Shown here piece after piece: positions 12,991 through 21,387 of a DNA stretch of 64,000 nt (position 1 is its first letter; each line of letters begins with the position of its first letter). This DNA is from an uncultured Bacteroidales bacterium (GTDB taxonomy: Bacteria; Bacteroidota; Bacteroidia; Bacteroidales; UBA4417). A program made the translations under genes and the position numbers. The DNA lies in contig CAIRMR010000102.1 of assembly GCA_903879715.1 (NCBI GenBank), positions 1 to 64,000 on the forward strand. Reading direction: 5' to 3'. The notes below the pieces were generated by a model. The model had not been told where the DNA came from and searched no databases. It saw only the letters and a program-made list of their open reading frames with translations.

Positions 12991-13059
12991 ACTCTTGCAA
13001 AAATCTAGATTCTTAAGGTCAACAGAACTAGTTTATATTTCCCAATTTTCAATTTTTCA

Positions 13060-13352
13060 ATGTTAAAGGTCCGGGGTTCAAATGCCTGCGGAGTTTAACA
13101 CTTTAGTTTCGCTCAGTTTGACAGGGTTCAAAGTTGTTCAATACTTCGTGTTCAAGGGTAACGTGACTATTTTCTATTTCCCTATTTCCAATTTTCTATT
13201 TTTCAATGTTAAAGGTCCGGGGTTCAAATGCCTGCGGAGTTCAACACTTCGGTTTCGCTCAGTTTGACTGGGTTCAAAGTTGTTCAATACTTCGTGTTCA
13301 AGGTTAACGTGACTATTTTCTATTTCCCTATTTCCAATTTTCTATTTTTCAA
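13060..13352. repeat. two exact-length 146-bp direct repeats
   Basis: A 146-base unit starting TGTTAAAGGTCCGGGGTTCA occurs at about 13061 and again at 13207, with a third copy of only its first bases (TGTTAAA) at 13353. The copies differ at a few bases. Each unit ends in CTATTTCC/CAATTTTC words and contains CACTTCGGTTTCGCTCAGT-type sequence. Open frames of 61 and 71 codons cross the units but start at the same repeat position and have no gene-like features. The surrounding 12991-13559 holds nothing else I recognise. Confidence 0.9.
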
Positions 13353-13559
13353 TGTTAAAAACCTGACAAACAGCAAGATTCTCTCAATGAGGAAAAATAA
13401 TAATTTCCCCACCTTAAATCCGGATCAATATAATGACTATTAATCCCCGAATACGTTTGTTCGTAAAACGGCTAAATGGAGGAATGGATACATAAACTAT
13501 AGGAAAACCAACAGAAGTGCTGCCAGGATCGGGCCTTCAATAAACGAAAAAACAATTGC

Positions 13560-15256: not shown

Positions 15257-16093
15257 CTATTGAAGTTCATCATCAAATAGTTTGCCCTGTGTAGCCATTT
15301 TTGCTTTAATTCCGGCAACTTCATTCTGAAGGGCAGCCAGGGCACCCGCCATCTGATTCACGGGAAGGTTAGGCTCAGGAAGTTCCGAACTGATGTAATG
15401 CACAAAACGCCAGACTTCGCGTAAATCATTCAGATCAACGGAATAAGATTCGTAAAGCGGATTTAGCGAGTGTAATACGAGCCTTCCTTCTGTTTTCAAA
15501 CGATTTTCGGCCACTTTAAACATTATGCCATCGTTTAATGTAAGAATGATATATGCCTGGTGGTCGCGGATCAGATCCCAGTTCTGCACAAACTCGCCGG
15601 TAACCCACGACTTGTCAGGTATAGGCAGCATGGAGTCGCCGGTAATCTGGAAGGTGCGGTACTTGCGGTCGGCCGAAAGAAACGGCAATTGAAAAGTAGG
15701 TAATACCTTAATATATTCAGGGTCAGCGAAACCGGTCCGATAACCGGCTGAGGCTTTCTGGTTTATCACTTCGATATTCTCCTTGTTTTTGCTGTCTACA
15801 GTAGTGGTAAGTACCCGAAGGTTTCCGCCGTTTACAAAAATATCGTATCCATGTTCCAACTGGTATAATTCGCTGTCGCGAAGCTCGCTCAGGTCCACAG
15901 TAAGCAGGGTATCCACCGATATTTTGAAATATTTGGCCAATGCCAGCAATGCTTCGATGCCCGGCTCGGCAACACCGTTTTCGTATCCGCTCAATGTGGA
16001 GCGTTTCAAATTGAGAGCAATAGCAATATCGTCCTGTGTGCGGCCTCGTCGTTTACGCAGCAGTTTAATGTTTTTTCCGAAGGTTGGTTCCAT
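15257..16093 (-). CDS. XRE/LexA-like self-cleaving transcriptional regulator (S24)
   Basis: 278 residues. Residues 6-62 are an XRE helix-turn-helix (LRKRRGRTQDDIAIALNLKR). Residues from about 110 form a LexA/UmuD-type S24 domain. A candidate Ala-Gly cleavage site lies at A116-G117 (KASAGY), the nucleophile is S154 in TGDSM and the general base is K193 in IMFKV. The Ser-Lys spacing (39) and site-Ser spacing (38) are close to those of LexA. The C-terminus has a coiled-coil-like tail. It reads away from dinB and a DnaE-like polymerase, so it probably represses them until DNA damage triggers self-cleavage. That link is inference from context and family knowledge. Confidence 0.85.
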   Translation of the reverse strand: MEPTFGKNIKLLRKRRGRTQDDIAIALNLKRSTLSGYENGVAEPGIEALLALAKYFKISVDTLLTVDLSELRDSELYQLEHGYDIFVNGGNLRVLTTTVDSKNKENIEVINQKASAGYRTGFADPEYIKVLPTFQLPFLSADRKYRTFQITGDSMLPIPDKSWVTGEFVQNWDLIRDHQAYIILTLNDGIMFKVAENRLKTEGRLVLHSLNPLYESYSVDLNDLREVWRFVHYISSELPEPNLPVNQMAGALAALQNEVAGIKAKMATQGKLFDDELQ

Positions 16094-16104
16094 GATATAT
16101 TATT

Positions 16105-16325
16105 TTAAAAAAACTCACCCCCTGCCCCCTCTCTTAACCTCATCTGCCCTTCGGGCATCTTCTCCTTTTCAGGAGAAGGAAAAAGGTATTTTTTTTGAAA
16201 GAGAGGGGGTGGAGACGAGGAAATTAGTTATTTAAGGGCACTTTTAAACATGGTAATGGTCGGTTAAAGTTTGATCAGGGAGTCACCCCCTCTCTTCGTG
16301 AAGAGAGGGGGCCGGGGGGGAGAGT
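16105..16325. repeat. palindrome-spacer-palindrome module, copy A
   Basis: Copy A of a module that also occurs at 16707-16880. Its first palindrome has arms CCCCCTCTCTT (16125-16135) and AAGAGAGGGGG (16199-16209). Between the arms lie about 63 extra bases with two further hairpins (TGCCCttcGGGCA and TTCTCCTtttcAGGAGAA). A spacer starting GACGAGGAAATTAGTTATTT follows at 16214. The second palindrome is CCCCCTCTCTTC-GT-GAAGAGAGGGGG (16286-16311, 12-bp stem). That palindrome encodes the last residues of the DUF559 protein. Confidence 0.9.
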
Positions 16326-16700
16326 TTTCAAGAACATTTTCCGAATTTTTTCTTTGACTTGTTCTACATTAATTGTCTCTTCATTTTTAATTCTCAAAAC
16401 ACGAAATCCCAGGTCATTTAATACTGAAGTTCGCCAAAGGTCATATTCCTTTTGCGAGTCATGTATTTTTCCGTCGATTTCAAGTATCAGCTTTTCTTCT
16501 GCACAGTAAAAATCAACAACAAAGAATTGAAATGAATCAAACGAATTTTCATGAATTATTTTGTGCTGCCTCAGAAACTTCTTTCCATCAAGCCTTCTGT
16601 TTCTGACTAATTCCCATACAATTCTTTCTGCCTCCGTCATGTTTTTACGGTTCTCCCTGCAAATTTCAACAACAAATTTCTTTCGCGAAACTGGTTTCAT
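16275..16700 (-). CDS. DUF559 endonuclease-like protein
   Basis: 141-residue protein of the DUF559 family, which has a Vsr-like PD-(D/E)xK nuclease fold. Visible family features are MTEAERIVW (E25), DFYCAEEKLILEIDG (D63, E74, D76) and the C-terminal GFRVLRIKNEE strand. The last 17 or so residues (LPPGPLSSRREGVTP) are encoded by a repeated palindrome and are probably not part of the fold. The gene lies between two copies of a palindrome-spacer-palindrome module and sits between the LexA-like regulator and dinB, reading away from dinB. Function in the cell is unknown. A mobile or repeat-associated role is inference. Confidence 0.85.
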   Translation of the reverse strand: MKPVSRKKFVVEICRENRKNMTEAERIVWELVRNRRLDGKKFLRQHKIIHENSFDSFQFFVVDFYCAEEKLILEIDGKIHDSQKEYDLWRTSVLNDLGFRVLRIKNEETINVEQVKEKIRKMFLKTLPPGPLSSRREGVTP

Positions 16701-16706
16701 GGCTTG

Positions 16707-16880
16707 TAAAAACTCACCCCCTGCCCCCTCTCTTTGAAGAAAAGAGAGGGGGTGTGGACGAGGAAATTAGTTATTTAAGGACATCTGTAAACATGGTAAT
16801 GAGTGATTAAAGGTAATTTCTGTTCGGTGATTCACCCCCTCTCTTCGTGAAGAGAGGGGGCCGGGGGGTGAGTTTTTTTT
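16707..16880. repeat. palindrome-spacer-palindrome module, copy B
   Basis: Copy B of the module at 16105-16325, in the same orientation and 543-549 bases away. Palindrome one: CCCCCTCTCTTT-GAAGA-AAAGAGAGGGGG (16724-16752). Spacer: GACGAGGAAATTAGTTATTT (from 16757), followed by AAACATGGTAAT. Palindrome two: CCCCCTCTCTTC-GT-GAAGAGAGGGGG (16835-16860), identical to that in copy A, with the same CCGGGGGG tail. Here palindrome one is uninterrupted. Confidence 0.9.
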
Positions 16881-16930
16881 TACTTCTGTCATCCTCAATT
16901 CAAAAATTATGATTATATTGTAGTCAGATT

Positions 16931-16951
16931 TTTGATTAGTTTTTAATCAAA
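16931..16951. promoter_or_regulatory. perfect inverted repeat upstream of dinB (candidate operator)
   Basis: TTTGATTA, a 5-base spacer (GTTTT) and TAATCAAA form a perfect 8-5-8 dyad ending 21 bases before the dinB ATG. It overlaps the place where the -7 element would fall. This size and position suit a dimeric repressor such as the nearby LexA-like protein. I did not find a second good copy before the regulator gene. Confidence 0.55.
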
Positions 16952-16972
16952 GGTAATGCATTTTTAATAGTA

Positions 16973-18193
16973 ATGTACAACGAACTGAAAATAATTTCAC
17001 CGCAGGGGTTTCCAGATAGTCTCCGCAGGACGGGCCGCACCATTGTGCATATGGATCTGGACACGTTTTTCGTAGCTGTGGAGCGGCTTATGAACAGCCA
17101 GCTTATCGGGAAGCCTGTGATTGTAGGCGGTTTTTCGGACCGCAGCGTGGTATCGAGTTGCAGCTACGAGGCGCGCACTTACGGCGTTCATTCGGCCATG
17201 CCTATGAAAATGGCCCGCATGCTATGCCCCGACGCCATCGTAGTACGTGGCGATATGGAGCAATACACAAAATACTCCAACCTGGTAACCGATGTTATTG
17301 CCGAAAGCGCGCCTGTGTACGAAAAAGCCAGTATCGACGAGCATTACCTCGATATTACCGGCATGGACCGCTTTTTTGGCAGCGTGAAATGGACACACGA
17401 CCTCCGGCAACGTATTATCAGCGAAACAGGTTTGCCGATTTCGCTGGGACTTTCGGTAAACAAAACGGTATGCAAAATAGCCACCGGCGTAGCCAAGCCC
17501 AACGGAGAACTGGAAATTCCCGCCGAACGGGTAATTCCTTTCCTGGGGCCGCTTTCGATAAGCAAAATTCCCGGTATAGGCGAAAAAACCTACCGGCTGC
17601 TGCGTTCCATGGGAATAGCCAGCATTGATACCCTCGGACATATGCCTCCCGAAATGATGGTGAAAGTGCTGGGGCAAAACGGATTAGTCATCTGGAAGAA
17701 AGCCAACGGCATCGATACCACGCCGGTTATCCCCTATTCCGAGCGGAAATCGATAAGTACCGAAACTACTTTTGAGCAGGATACTATTGATATTCATATG
17801 ATCAATGAACTGCTGGTGCAGATGGTAGAGAAAATTGCTTTTACGCTTCGCAAAAAACAAAAACTCACTTCCTGCGTAACGTTAAAAATCCGCTACTCCA
17901 ATTTCGATACGCATACCATACAACAACGCATTGGCTACACTTCGTTCGATCATGTGCTGATACCTGTGGCCAAGGAACTGTTCCGCAAACTGTACCAGCG
18001 CCGCATGTTGATACGCCTGGTTGGCGTGAAATTCAGCTACCTGGTAACCGGCGTGCAGCAAATCGACCTCTTCGACCAGACGCCCGAACTTATCAACCTC
18101 TACCAGGCCGTGGATCGTATGCGGCTACGCTACGGGCGGAAATCGGTAATACGGGCTGTGGGCGTAGATGCGAAGGATGAGGAGGAGGAATGA
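16973..18193 (+). CDS. dinB: Y-family DNA polymerase IV (DinB)
   Basis: Translesion DNA polymerase of 406 residues. The palm has HMDLDTFFVAVE (D28 and D30) and SIDEHYLDITG (D122-E123), the two metal-binding sites. Helix-hairpin-helix (KIPGIGEKTYRLL) and little-finger domains follow. A near-C-terminal QIDLF at 363-367 matches the beta-clamp binding consensus, so it should be recruited to the sliding clamp. The local G+C is higher than in neighbouring genes. With the DnaE-like polymerase downstream and the LexA-like regulator nearby it forms a typical damage-inducible mutagenesis set. Confidence 0.95.
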   Translation: MYNELKIISPQGFPDSLRRTGRTIVHMDLDTFFVAVERLMNSQLIGKPVIVGGFSDRSVVSSCSYEARTYGVHSAMPMKMARMLCPDAIVVRGDMEQYTKYSNLVTDVIAESAPVYEKASIDEHYLDITGMDRFFGSVKWTHDLRQRIISETGLPISLGLSVNKTVCKIATGVAKPNGELEIPAERVIPFLGPLSISKIPGIGEKTYRLLRSMGIASIDTLGHMPPEMMVKVLGQNGLVIWKKANGIDTTPVIPYSERKSISTETTFEQDTIDIHMINELLVQMVEKIAFTLRKKQKLTSCVTLKIRYSNFDTHTIQQRIGYTSFDHVLIPVAKELFRKLYQRRMLIRLVGVKFSYLVTGVQQIDLFDQTPELINLYQAVDRMRLRYGRKSVIRAVGVDAKDEEEE

Positions 18194-18440
18194 TGTGGAA
18201 TGTGCGATGTCGGATGTGCGATGTCGGAAGTAAATCATGAACAGCAGAAATGTCAAGTTTCAAATTCCAAGCACCAAGCCCCAAATCGTAAATCGTAAAT
18301 CGGCATTCGTAAATCGTAAATCGGCATTCGTAAATCGTAAATCGGCATTCGTAAATCGTCATTCGGCATTCGTAAATCGTCATTCGTACCTCGTACCTCG
18401 TCATTCGTCATTCGTAAATCGCACATCCCCCATCCGACAT
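18194..18440. repeat. GGATGTGCGATGTC words and a 21-bp tandem array
   Basis: After dinB come GGATGTGCGATGTC words (18196-18230), then from about 18288 to 18420 a tandem array of a 21-base unit made of two GTAAATC words plus GGCATTC. About three units are near-perfect and two or three are degenerate, ending in GTACCTCGTACCTCG. The unit is a multiple of three, so frames stay open across it in several frames on both strands. These are not genes. There are no unique spacers, so it is not a CRISPR array. Confidence 0.85.
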
Positions 18441-18444
18441 TAAA

Positions 18445-21387
18445 ATGTACCTCAACTGCCACTCCTACTACAGCCTTCGCTACGGCACGCTTCCCGTTGA
18501 CAAACTGGTGGAAATGGCTGTAGCAAATGGCATTGATACACTTACACTTACCGATATCAACAATAGCATGGGTGTGGTTGATTTTGTGAAAGCCTGTAAC
18601 AAAAACAATATAAAACCGGTGGCCGGAATCGAATTCCGCGACGGGAATGAACTCTTATATATAGGTATAGCCCGGAACAATGAAGGATTTATGGAATTGA
18701 ACGAATTCCTGAGTCATCACAATATCAATAAACTCCCTTTGCCACTGCAGGCACCGGCATTCAGTCACTGCTATGTTATTTATCCTTTCGGGGAAAAGTC
18801 ACCGAAGAGGCTGCGCGATAATGAATATACCGGAATCCGGAGTACAGAACTAAACAAACTACTTTCGGCAGAAAACCGAAACCGGCTGCAAAAACTCGTA
18901 GCGTTGTGCCCGGTAACTTTTGATAGTGAACCTGGATACGAACTGCACCGCAACCTTCGCGCCATCGACAACAATATTTTATTGAGCATGTTGATTCCGT
19001 CGCAGGTAGCTGCTCCCGACGAACTTTTCAGCCCGCCTGCAGAACTGGAAAAACTTTTTGAATACTATCCGCAGATTATTTCCAACACCCGTAAATTGCT
19101 GGATGATTGCAGTATCAATTTTGATTTTACTAACCCCAAAAACAAAAAAACATTCTCGGCAAGCGCATATGATGACAATCTGCTGCTTGAAAAGCTGGCT
19201 CTCGATGGTATGGTTTATCGCTATGGCAAAAACAATAAGGAAGCAAAACAGCGGATAAAACATGAGCTCGGGATTATCGACAAACAGGGTTTCTCCTCGT
19301 ACTTCCTGATTACCTGGGATATTATCCGTTATACCATGGGTCGCGGATTTTACCATGTTGGCCGTGGCAGCGGCGCCAACAGTATTGTAGCATACTGCCT
19401 TCGGATTACGGATGTAGACCCTATTGAATTAAATCTCTATTTCGAACGTTTCCTGAATCCAAAACGAAGTAGCCCTCCGGATTTTGATATCGACTATTCG
19501 TGGAAAGACCGCGACGAAGTGTTTGATTATATTTTCAAACGCTACGGGCATAAACATACTGCTTTATTAGGTGCAACTTCAACATTTAAAGGGAAATCGA
19601 CATTGCGCGAACTGGGAAAAGTATATGGTTTACCCAAAGAAGAAATTGACCTGCTTGTAGAAGAACCCAATAACCCACTCAACAATAATGATATTGCCCA
19701 TCATATTGTAAAGCTTGCTACGCGCATGACGGACTTCCCGAACATCCGCAGCATACATGCCGGTGGTGTGCTGATTTCGGAAGAACCACTTACTGCGTAC
19801 GCCGCACTCGATATGCCACCCAAGGCTTTTCCAACCACACAATGGGATATGTATGTGGCTGAAGATCTGCGATACGAAAAACTCGATATCCTGAGCCAAC
19901 GCGGCCTCGGCCATATACAGGAGGCAGTGGAAATTATCAAACAAAACCGGGGAATAAATATTGATATTCATCGTGTCAGCGATTTTAAGAAAGATAAAAA
20001 AATCAAACAGCAACTGAAATCGGCCGAAACCATAGGGTGTTTTTATATTGAAAGTCCTGCTATGCGCGGGCTGCTGAAAAAGCTCAAATGCGACAATTAC
20101 CTCACGCTGGTCGCAGCGAGCAGCATTATTCGTCCGGGAGTTGCACGCTCGGGAATGATGAAGGAATACATTTGGCGGTTCCATAATCCGGATAAATTCA
20201 AATACCTGCATCCCATTATGGAAGAACAATTGGGCGAAACCTACGGCGTAATGGTGTACCAGGAGGATGTACTCAAAATATGTCACCACTTTGCCGGCCT
20301 CGATCTTGCCGATGCCGATGTGCTTCGCCGTGCCATGAGCGGAAAATACCGCTCGCGGATTGAGTTTCAGAAAATCGTGGATAAGTATTTCGAGAGTTGT
20401 TATGAGCAGGGACATTCCGAAGAAGTTACCAAAGAAGTATGGCGGCAGATTGAGTCGTTTGCAGGATATTCATTTTCAAAAGCACATTCGGCTTCGTTTG
20501 CAGTTGAGAGTTACCAAAGCCTTTTCCTGAAATCGTACTACCCGCTCGAATTTATGACTGCCGTGCTCAATAATTTCGGTGGATTTTACCAGGCATGGGT
20601 GTATATCAACGAAGCCAAGCGATGCGGAGCTGCTATTGAATTACCCTGCATCAACCGGAGCAATCATACGACAACAATTTCAGGAAGTACAATCTGGCTG
20701 GGATTTGTATATATTGCCAACCTCGAAATCAATACAGTGAATGCCATAATTGACGAACGAACACACAATGGTCCTTATCTGAGCCTGGCTGATTTTGTTA
20801 ACCGCGTTCCACTTACACTGGATCAGGCTGTTCTGCTTATCCGGCTTAACGCGTTGCGGTTTACCGGTACCAGTAAGCAACAATTATTATGGGAAGTACA
20901 CCTTTTATTACGGAAATCTGCGCCCGCTCCTACCGATGGTTCTTTGTTTGCCACACCAGCCAGGCAGTTTCGCATGCCTGATCTGGATCATTCAATCGTT
21001 GATGATGCCTTCGATGAAATTGAACTGCTTGGATTCCCGGTAACGATGGGCTATTTCGATCTGCTTCAAACTCAATTCCGAGGTGAATTCAGGGCACAGG
21101 ATATTGCCTCACATATTGGCGAAACGGTGAGAATGCTGGGATCGCTGGTTACCATAAAATACGTGCGGACGATCCGGAACGAGATTATGCATTTTGGAAC
21201 TTTCTTCGATGTGGATGGCGAGTTTTTCGATACGGTTCATTTTCCGCAATCGTCAAAGCAATATCCTTTTAAAGGTCGGGGAGTTTATTTATTGAAAGGG
21301 AAAATTGTGGAGGAATTTGGTTTCCCTAGTATTGAGGTAGAGAAAATGGCGAAACTGCCGTTTGTGAAGGATAGAAGGTATTTGTAA
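18445..21387 (+). CDS. DnaE-family DNA polymerase III alpha subunit (probable error-prone second copy)
   Basis: 980 residues, shorter than a replicative DnaE (about 1,150 or more). Order: PHP domain from residue 1 (CHSYYSLRYGT, TLTDINN); palm and thumb with the catalytic PDFDID (D346, D348, D350); fingers with GRGSGANS and the GVARSGMM segment; helix-hairpin-helix region near 790-820; C-terminal OB-fold-like part (ETVRMLGSLVTIKYVRT). Bacteria often place a shorter DnaE2/ImuC-like enzyme with DinB under LexA-type control, and the neighbours here match that. Whether this is the only alpha subunit in the genome cannot be seen from the window. A G-rich repeat follows the stop codon directly. Confidence 0.9.
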   Translation: MYLNCHSYYSLRYGTLPVDKLVEMAVANGIDTLTLTDINNSMGVVDFVKACNKNNIKPVAGIEFRDGNELLYIGIARNNEGFMELNEFLSHHNINKLPLPLQAPAFSHCYVIYPFGEKSPKRLRDNEYTGIRSTELNKLLSAENRNRLQKLVALCPVTFDSEPGYELHRNLRAIDNNILLSMLIPSQVAAPDELFSPPAELEKLFEYYPQIISNTRKLLDDCSINFDFTNPKNKKTFSASAYDDNLLLEKLALDGMVYRYGKNNKEAKQRIKHELGIIDKQGFSSYFLITWDIIRYTMGRGFYHVGRGSGANSIVAYCLRITDVDPIELNLYFERFLNPKRSSPPDFDIDYSWKDRDEVFDYIFKRYGHKHTALLGATSTFKGKSTLRELGKVYGLPKEEIDLLVEEPNNPLNNNDIAHHIVKLATRMTDFPNIRSIHAGGVLISEEPLTAYAALDMPPKAFPTTQWDMYVAEDLRYEKLDILSQRGLGHIQEAVEIIKQNRGINIDIHRVSDFKKDKKIKQQLKSAETIGCFYIESPAMRGLLKKLKCDNYLTLVAASSIIRPGVARSGMMKEYIWRFHNPDKFKYLHPIMEEQLGETYGVMVYQEDVLKICHHFAGLDLADADVLRRAMSGKYRSRIEFQKIVDKYFESCYEQGHSEEVTKEVWRQIESFAGYSFSKAHSASFAVESYQSLFLKSYYPLEFMTAVLNNFGGFYQAWVYINEAKRCGAAIELPCINRSNHTTTISGSTIWLGFVYIANLEINTVNAIIDERTHNGPYLSLADFVNRVPLTLDQAVLLIRLNALRFTGTSKQQLLWEVHLLLRKSAPAPTDGSLFATPARQFRMPDLDHSIVDDAFDEIELLGFPVTMGYFDLLQTQFRGEFRAQDIASHIGETVRMLGSLVTIKYVRTIRNEIMHFGTFFDVDGEFFDTVHFPQSSKQYPFKGRGVYLLKGKIVEEFGFPSIEVEKMAKLPFVKDRRYL

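Follow-up and report, generated by a model that had tools for sequence, protein, structure and literature searches.

DUF559 is a widespread protein family for which, to our knowledge, no cellular role has been agreed. The repeats that accompany the DUF559 gene described here have their closest described counterpart in the BoxC/PIT/TM repeats, which have been known since the 1990s. According to the portions of Holder et al. 2015 (PMC4666352) available to us, these repeats occur in more than 260 genomes, with 23 in E. coli MG1655, where they form inverted pairs and fall into types A and B. The E. coli copies fold into an intrastrand triplex in vitro. The same portions state that a stable triplex could not be shown in vivo, that no clear function and no mobility activities near the E. 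coli repeats were found, and that TM sites are unstable in E. coli. We also drew on the accessible parts of PMC12817139, PMC1189080, PMC12907096, PMC12306157, PMC3116915, PMC2869309 and PMC3733652. In the literature within our scope, which leaves out most subscription journals and preprints, no link between DUF559 and these repeats was found, the part of PMC12907096 that we had included.

Here we compare a locus in a 64-kb stretch of DNA (the whole of which we call the window) with these systems. We read it as a small mobile element, a DUF559 nuclease gene bracketed by paired BoxC/PIT/TM intrastrand-triplex repeats, and put the probability of this reading at roughly 0.68.

A DUF559 gene between two hairpin modules

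A module made up of a hairpin, a spacer and an inverted hairpin is present in two direct copies, with the DUF559 gene (16275-16700, minus strand) between them. The features are as follows.

16108-16332, no strand: left module (repeat L1, spacer, inverted repeat L2)
16114-16209, minus strand: repeat L1; third strand 16114-16122, arms 16125-16135 and 16199-16209, loop enlarged by an insertion at 16136-16197
16136-16197, no strand: insertion in the L1 loop, 62 bases against a loop of about 6; harbours a second triplex-type repeat
Third strand 16138-16145, arms 16158-16165 and 16172-16179: triplex-type repeat inside the L1 loop; whole-genome pattern count 4
16275-16700, minus strand: DUF559 (YcjD-like, Vsr-fold) nuclease gene, 141 aa; last codons inside the left module
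16286-16324, plus strand: repeat L2; arms 16286-16297 and 16300-16311, loop CCG, third strand 16315-16324
16707-16878, no strand: right module (repeat R1, spacer at 16755-16832, inverted repeat R2)
16713-16752, minus strand: repeat R1; third strand 16713-16721, arms 16724-16735 and 16741-16752
16835-16872, plus strand: repeat R2; arms 16835-16846 and 16849-16860, loop CCG, third strand 16864-16872

The two modules are 86-87% identical, with spacers of 72 bases on the left and 78 on the right, and their offset is 543 and 549 bases, one figure for each module half. These coordinates and identities bear out the preliminary description of this DNA, in which a module was duplicated in direct orientation, 543-549 bases apart, with the DUF559 reading frame between the copies. 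That the last codons of the gene are formed from a palindrome also agrees with what we found, since the reading frame does run into the left module. The same description treated the hairpins as plain 12-bp palindromes. This held for the arms of L2, R1 and R2, which are perfect over 12 bp (CCCCCTCTCTTC/GAAGAGAGGGGG at 16286-16311 and 16835-16860, CCCCCTCTCTTT/AAAGAGAGGGGG at 16724-16752). It did not hold for L1, with its 62-base loop, nor for the hairpins as a whole, all of which have an additional third segment beside the stem that mirrors the arm (CTCACCCC on the pyrimidine strand, GGGGTGAG or GGGGAGAG on the purine strand).

Each module combines one CCG-loop repeat with one repeat of a second type, and the hairpin heads, of type AACTCACCCCC, point outward. 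The tag at the window repeats is CTCA, contained in CTCACCCC; in L2 the corresponding segment reads CTCTCCCC. The insertion in the L1 loop differs from L1 in sequence and resembles it in repeat design. Among six orthologues it occurs only in the source genome (G000), the left outer hairpin being uninterrupted in the 5 others.

Around the element, positions 15257-21387 of the window encode a helix-turn-helix regulator, a Y-family polymerase with IMS domains and a DnaE-type polymerase, which likely form an SOS mutagenesis cassette. The window also has tandem repeats: a 146-base unit in 2.2 copies with 96% matches (13036-13359) and a 21-base unit repeated 6.5 times between the Y-family polymerase and DnaE-type genes (18283-18421). 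Short tandem repeats also precede the Y-family polymerase gene in a related genome (G002).

The encoded protein matches Pfam PF04480 (DUF559) with an E value of 6e-28 and 97.3 bits, against a gathering score of 20.6. Its structure model (pLDDT 85) superposes on the DUF559/YcjD structure 3hrl (VIA Z 14.4, rmsd 1.1, 92 residues), on the homing endonuclease I-Bth0305I (PDB 3r3p; VIA Z 11.9, rmsd 2.2, 92 residues), which is the nearest characterised fold, and on Vsr (VIA Z 9.6, rmsd 2.1, 96 residues). Some mitochondrial ribosome chains reach Z scores of 8.6-9.5, near that of Vsr, at an rmsd of 5-7. We take I-Bth0305I to belong to the EDxHD family. It is also matched weakly at the sequence level (E 3.5e-4), and PADLOC gave weak matches to a homing endonuclease (E 3e-6) and to a type II methyl-directed restriction enzyme (E 1e-5). 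Catalytic-type residues are retained in nearly all of the 81 aligned DUF559 proteins (D in 81/81, E in 81/81, D in 77/81, H in 79/81). For 15 pairs among the six orthologues at the polymerase site, dN/dS ranges from 0.07 to 0.18, and the gene is thus under purifying selection.

Repeats and DUF559 genes across genomes

The exact palindrome pattern occurs 3 times in the 64-kb window, against 0 expected from 100 shuffles, and 7 times in the 6.07-Mb source genome, always at one of its two short DUF559 genes (7/7). With a looser pattern that allows a shorter stem, the genome has 11 matching places, of which 7 are at DUF559 and the remaining 4 are solo hairpins at other positions, with similar heads. 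Five pyrimidine-arm hairpins are present in the whole window, 4 of them at the DUF559 locus. For the dispersed and solo repeats, we viewed 14 of the 20 loci fetched, leaving out L126, L128, L130, L131, L132 and L133.

The second short DUF559 gene of the source genome (contig C55) shows the same order of module, gene and module, with the modules oriented relative to the gene as in the window. The palindromes of the two loci are nearly identical and the spacers are not. Spacer identity is 81% within the C55 locus and 44-61% between C55 and the spacers at the window's site (the dinB site), in a comparison that leaves out 3 of the 12 dinB-site spacers, which did not fit the search pattern. Concerted evolution of the left and right modules was considered and rejected, as left and right copies at the dinB site are not consistently closest to each other.

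DUF559 is present in 78 of 148 Bacteroidota genomes, and several copies occur in one genome. We sampled 60 stand-alone loci, defined by an open frame no longer than about 220 aa and taken with at most 4 kb of flanking sequence per side. They comprise one gene from each of 48 genomes and 12 further genes from the same genomes. GC-rich hairpins with a stem of at least 8 were found at 44 of the 60 loci; their density is 1.26 per kb in the nearest 450 bp and 0.12 per kb at distances above 1 kb. A pyrimidine-arm hairpin lies within 450 bp of DUF559 at 53 of the 60 loci, compared with 4 of 108 control windows 2.7 kb away, and such hairpins lie on both sides at 30 loci and in none of the 108 control windows; the homopyrimidine-arm rule was chosen after the GC-rich hairpin result on those same loci. 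Seven loci have no qualifying hairpin and 30 are not bracketed. The preliminary description had proposed to look for palindromes near DUF559 genes elsewhere, and this enrichment is what it anticipated.

These figures also settle whether the arrangement is a chance duplication around an ordinary gene, which the preliminary description had left standing and which has its general possibility alone in its favour. The exclusivity of the exact pattern in the source genome (7/7), the 53/60 versus 4/108 enrichment, the zero count in shuffles, the recurrence of the layout at a second locus and the hairpins at DUF559 in other genomes refute it, and we regard its probability as negligible.

The loci behind the count of 53 of 60 had been selected for DUF559; separate counts start from the repeats. 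In ten genomes of the genus, 26 of 76 repeats lie within 500 bp of DUF559 and 50 lie far from it (a hand tally that excludes G012-G015). Another variant, followed in six genomes, gave 10 of 20 at DUF559 and 10 far. For individual genomes, the repeats at DUF559 number 3/3 in G139, 5/11 in G147, 1/2 in G155 and 1/4 in G046, and no repeats were found in G118 and G074. The other 6 repeats of G147 are modules arrayed in tandem at intervals of about 199 bases (contig C1, about 199150-200170, L329), with no DUF559 nearby among the matches listed, which are two of the three in that genome.

In another view, the repeats are miniature elements of REP type whose mobility comes from an unrelated Y1 (HUH) transposase of the RAYT/TIRYT kind, and DUF559 is a passenger inserted between them. 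With inverted hairpins on either side of a spacer, the modules do follow the REPIN layout, and the TIR motif GGGGWSAS, given for some tyrosine transposases in the accessible text of Di Nocera et al. (PMC3733652), fits GGGGTGAG. However, counted from the repeat side, too, repeats lie at DUF559, both in these four genomes and in the source genome (7/7 exact, 7/11 looser), the window tag is CTCA and not GTAG, and what is inserted in frame in other genes (described below) is DUF559 with repeats at its edges. We consider a Y1 enzyme quite unlikely.

Co-evolution of DUF559 and the palindromes was not clearly supported (Mantel r 0.09, p 0.06), resemblance being confined to pairs with more than 50% identity.

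A text query with the repeat core CCCTCTCCC led to the BoxC/PIT/TM repeats (PMC4666352). Judged by sequence, the palindromes match this intrastrand-triplex motif, that is, a repeat that already has a name: the window copies contain a pyrimidine arm, a purine arm, a short loop and a mirror purine third strand. The assignment rests on this three-part design, the exact E. coli consensus having been applied only in E. coli. Three of the four window repeats, all except L2, have an A to T change in the third strand.

We assessed the third strand on 141 pyrimidine-arm hairpins from 62 loci (the 60 stand-alone loci and the two of the source genome). A mirror third strand with at least 75% match accompanies 103 of the 141 hairpins (mean 22, maximum 34 in 200 flank shuffles), and one with at least 87% accompanies 63 (mean 2.7, maximum 7); because the hairpins are not independent of one another, these figures convey strength and not an exact probability. 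For the 70 hairpins whose arm is not its own mirror image, the mirror arrangement matched better than a direct repeat in 45, worse in 8 and equally in 17. In near-perfect third strands, 47 of 53 mismatches replace A by T, which an antiparallel purine triplex should tolerate. The second loop usually has 3 bases (41/67). TGAG within 30 bases of the stem is in modest excess (60/141; mean 36, maximum 49 in shuffled sequence). Since the third strand follows changes in the arms, the potential to form a triplex appears to be conserved as the letters of the repeat change, and the mirror statistics argue that the folded form, and not merely a binding sequence, is kept.

This result bears on the possibility that the repeats serve the nuclease gene, which might be autoregulated or addictive, as terminators or regulatory hairpins, its mobility being no more than ordinary horizontal transfer. 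The hairpins often lie at gene ends, and similar repeats are interpreted as terminators in the part of the Enterobacter sp. 638 paper available to us. A terminator needs no mirror third strand, however, and solo repeats occur away from DUF559 and within open reading frames. Earlier work cited in the accessible part of PMC4666352 also reports PIT to be without promoter or terminator activity. We think this explanation very unlikely.

Outside Bacteroidota, 16 records of a plasmid collection match DUF559, and we examined 10 loci. Eight of the 10 have at least one hairpin by the arm rule within 400 bp, some on both sides, in a count made without control windows; they belong to Synechocystis (two), Picosynechococcus, Pseudanabaena, Deinococcus, Sphingomonas, Photobacterium and Azospirillum. 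Two E. coli records of the collection have a TM motif downstream of DUF559 instead. In the two Synechocystis plasmids (L306, L313), DUF559 adjoins coding stretches annotated as DUF1156 protein or BREX PglX methylase, perhaps further in-frame or gene-splitting insertions. A phage origin was not indicated, as no match was found in 50,697 phage records at an E value of 1e-5.

In E. coli K-12 MG1655, the published TM no. 9 lies 168 bp from ycjD, a DUF559 gene, and a ycjD query has a match in 3,365 of 5,426 E. coli genomes. At ycjD we obtained no clean pair of empty and filled alleles, because the eef operon occupies the alternative allele in the four strains compared. The alx-sstT pair was likewise rejected as an empty/filled case, as it showed only loss inside the repeat pair and an unrelated longer allele. 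There (L320, L322, L323), the TM pair of K-12 corresponds to one hairpin in another strain, as if reduced by recombination between the arms, and to the longer allele in a third.

Filled, solo and empty sites

At the dinB site, which is flanked by the regulator gene and the Y-family polymerase gene, six genomes of the genus (G000, G008, G011, G013, G014 and G015) carry the full element and four others (G009, G012, G005 and G003) have none. In one of the latter, G012, one solo repeat lies where the polymerase gene begins. The site was unusable in G010, where the contig starts inside a module, in G001, with two unknown bases at the junction, and in G002, where the contig stops short; G007 gave only a distant match, and G004 and G006 gave none.

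The site behind tatD was compared at 10 of 17 loci. It holds the full element in the source genome and a solo module without the gene in G014. In G008 a truncated head is followed by unrelated sequence, and in G012 a hairpin lies at the contig end. G009 and G005 have short intergenic stretches with no repeats, and by eye no such repeat was seen in G013, G015, G011 and G003. Neither a target-site duplication nor an exact junction was resolved at the sites compared.

The element also occurs in frame within conserved genes, which goes beyond what the preliminary description had proposed. Twenty DUF559 domains lie in long reading frames: leuS (6), recG (2), metH (2), pheT (1), type I restriction subunits (5) and other restriction-methylase genes (4). 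We rejected these frames as a negative control, since most of them are insertions. In 15 of the 20, host sequence is present on both sides of DUF559, as established by alignment for leuS and recG and by Pfam domains for metH, pheT, two HsdR, an Eco57I-type gene and a type ISP gene. Pfam was run on 12 of the long frames and recognised host domains on both sides in 9; for L205, L207 and L211 a host domain was recognised on just one side, and L210 and L222 were judged by eye. GC-rich hairpins lie close to 13 of the 20 domains, and the in-frame insertions have repeats at their edges.

The recG site is filled in two genera (G099 and G118) and empty in the 9 other aligned genomes, five of which belong to the genus of G099; the alignment excludes G149, whose open frame of 708 aa has the uninterrupted size. 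For leuS, we aligned 14 of 18 genomes, leaving out G036, G040, G083 and G157, some of which have long leuS frames. Two insertion sites were found, with filled and empty alleles. At site 1 the insertion is present in G118, G044 and G068 and absent from G103, which is of the same genus as G044; at site 2 it is present in G064, G095 and G153. In addition, leuS carries a solo in-frame hairpin at site 1 in the source genome and at site 2 in G118. The former (L281, contig C151) therefore lies at a site where other genera carry a full DUF559 insertion. The leuS gene of G099 (L282) has a different palindromic repeat, TCGAGCGGAGTCGAG, at site 1.

In a tree, copies from the same site group together (support 0.96 for leuS site 1, 0.88 for recG and 0.99 for metH), and all ten leuS, recG and metH copies form one clade with weak support (0.57). 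The presence of same-site copies in different genera could reflect vertical descent with loss rather than homing.

The preliminary description had suggested that orthologous loci without the insert should be sought, and such loci were found at the dinB and tatD sites as well as at the recG and leuS sites. Together with the enrichment near DUF559 genes, these insert-free sites speak for its proposal that the nuclease and the palindromes form a REP/nuclease element of an undescribed kind. The enrichment and occupancy data gave none of the outcomes that it had named as contrary: DUF559 genes elsewhere lacking palindromes, palindromes distributed independently of DUF559, or the arrangement fixed without any empty site.

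A further explanation is that DUF559 is a Vsr-like nuclease of repair or maintenance and that the triplex repeats are fragile sites that attract insertions, so that the two are neighbours without a partnership. This would fit the Vsr fold (Z 9.6), the position of the window element between a helix-turn-helix regulator and a Y-family polymerase gene, the instability of TM sites in E. coli (PMC4666352, in the portions available) and the ties of Caulobacter VsrA, a DUF559 protein, to a cytosine methyltransferase and DNA damage in the literature accessible to us. It leaves unexplained, however, the matching flanking modules with locus-specific spacers, the repeat-bounded in-frame insertions and the several DUF559 copies per genome, and we consider it unlikely.

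The proposed element and known systems

The best reading of these data is a REPIN-like mobile element with a non-HUH nuclease, in which the nuclease would cut and the element would move. At the level of sequence comparison, the pairing of DUF559 with triplex repeats and the mobility of this pair are well supported; how the nuclease would recognise, cut and copy is something we infer. In the mechanism that we propose, the repeats would be the ends of the element and would spread as non-autonomous copies, so that single hairpins, inverted pairs, tandem arrays and the full module-gene-module unit would all be spreading forms. The nuclease would recognise the repeat, perhaps while one strand is folded during replication or transcription, and would cut at or beside it. 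Through break repair or template switching, the broken site could then receive a copy of one repeat, of a module or of the entire unit. If the direct modules recombined with each other, the gene could be lost and a solo module left behind.

The link between DUF559 and these repeats may explain the spread of a long-known orphan repeat, and joining BoxC/PIT/TM and DUF559 makes both testable at once, in E. coli K-12 via ycjD and the repeat next to it. It would add a kind of mobile element outside the HUH, DDE and recombinase enzymes, propose a role for the DUF559/YcjD family (PF04480) and account for the DUF559 domains inside LeuS, RecG, MetH and PheT. The change of the third strand along with the arms would give an evolutionary argument that intrastrand triplexes matter in cells. 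A broader version of the proposal, which we advance tentatively and with more doubt than belief, is a new class of mobile element in which the ends are recognised as three-stranded DNA: DUF559 would read the folded triplex as well as its sequence, cut, drive BoxC/PIT/TM repeats across several phyla and invade essential genes in frame.

The repeats of the window share with BoxC/PIT/TM, as described in the accessible portions of PMC4666352, the three-segment design, the frequent A to T change, the inverted pairs and the wide spread. They differ in that no mobility activities are reported there near the E. coli repeats, whereas here a nuclease gene is tied to the repeats, arm sequence varies from genome to genome and the unit is in many cases bracketed.

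With REPIN-RAYT systems (REPtrons), in the literature available to us, the element shares inverted doublets of REP type with a spacer, a repeat-flanked gene, dispersed non-autonomous copies and clusters. The enzyme of those systems is an HUH tyrosine (Y1) transposase beside the repeats, whereas the gene between the modules here is DUF559, with a PD-(D/E)XK/Vsr-like nuclease fold. Their palindromes have a GTAG or CGTC tag next to them, in contrast to CTCA in the window copies. Here, moreover, the repeats have a triplex design and full units occur in frame within genes. We reject membership in REPIN-RAYT because the enzyme fold and the tag differ.

The modelled protein resembles I-Bth0305I in the fold of its catalytic domain (Z 11.9), as expected of an EDxHD fold, and the element resembles it in its insertion at recurring sites in conserved genes; here, unlike I-Bth0305I, the protein is a single small domain and is flanked by repeats. 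The likeness to the Vsr mismatch endonuclease lies in the fold (Z 9.6), and Caulobacter VsrA contains DUF559 according to the part of that literature we had, whereas the nuclease here is associated with triplex repeats. By its Pfam match, its predicted Vsr-like fold and its D/E/D/H residues, the window protein is a member of DUF559/YcjD (PF04480; 3hrl).
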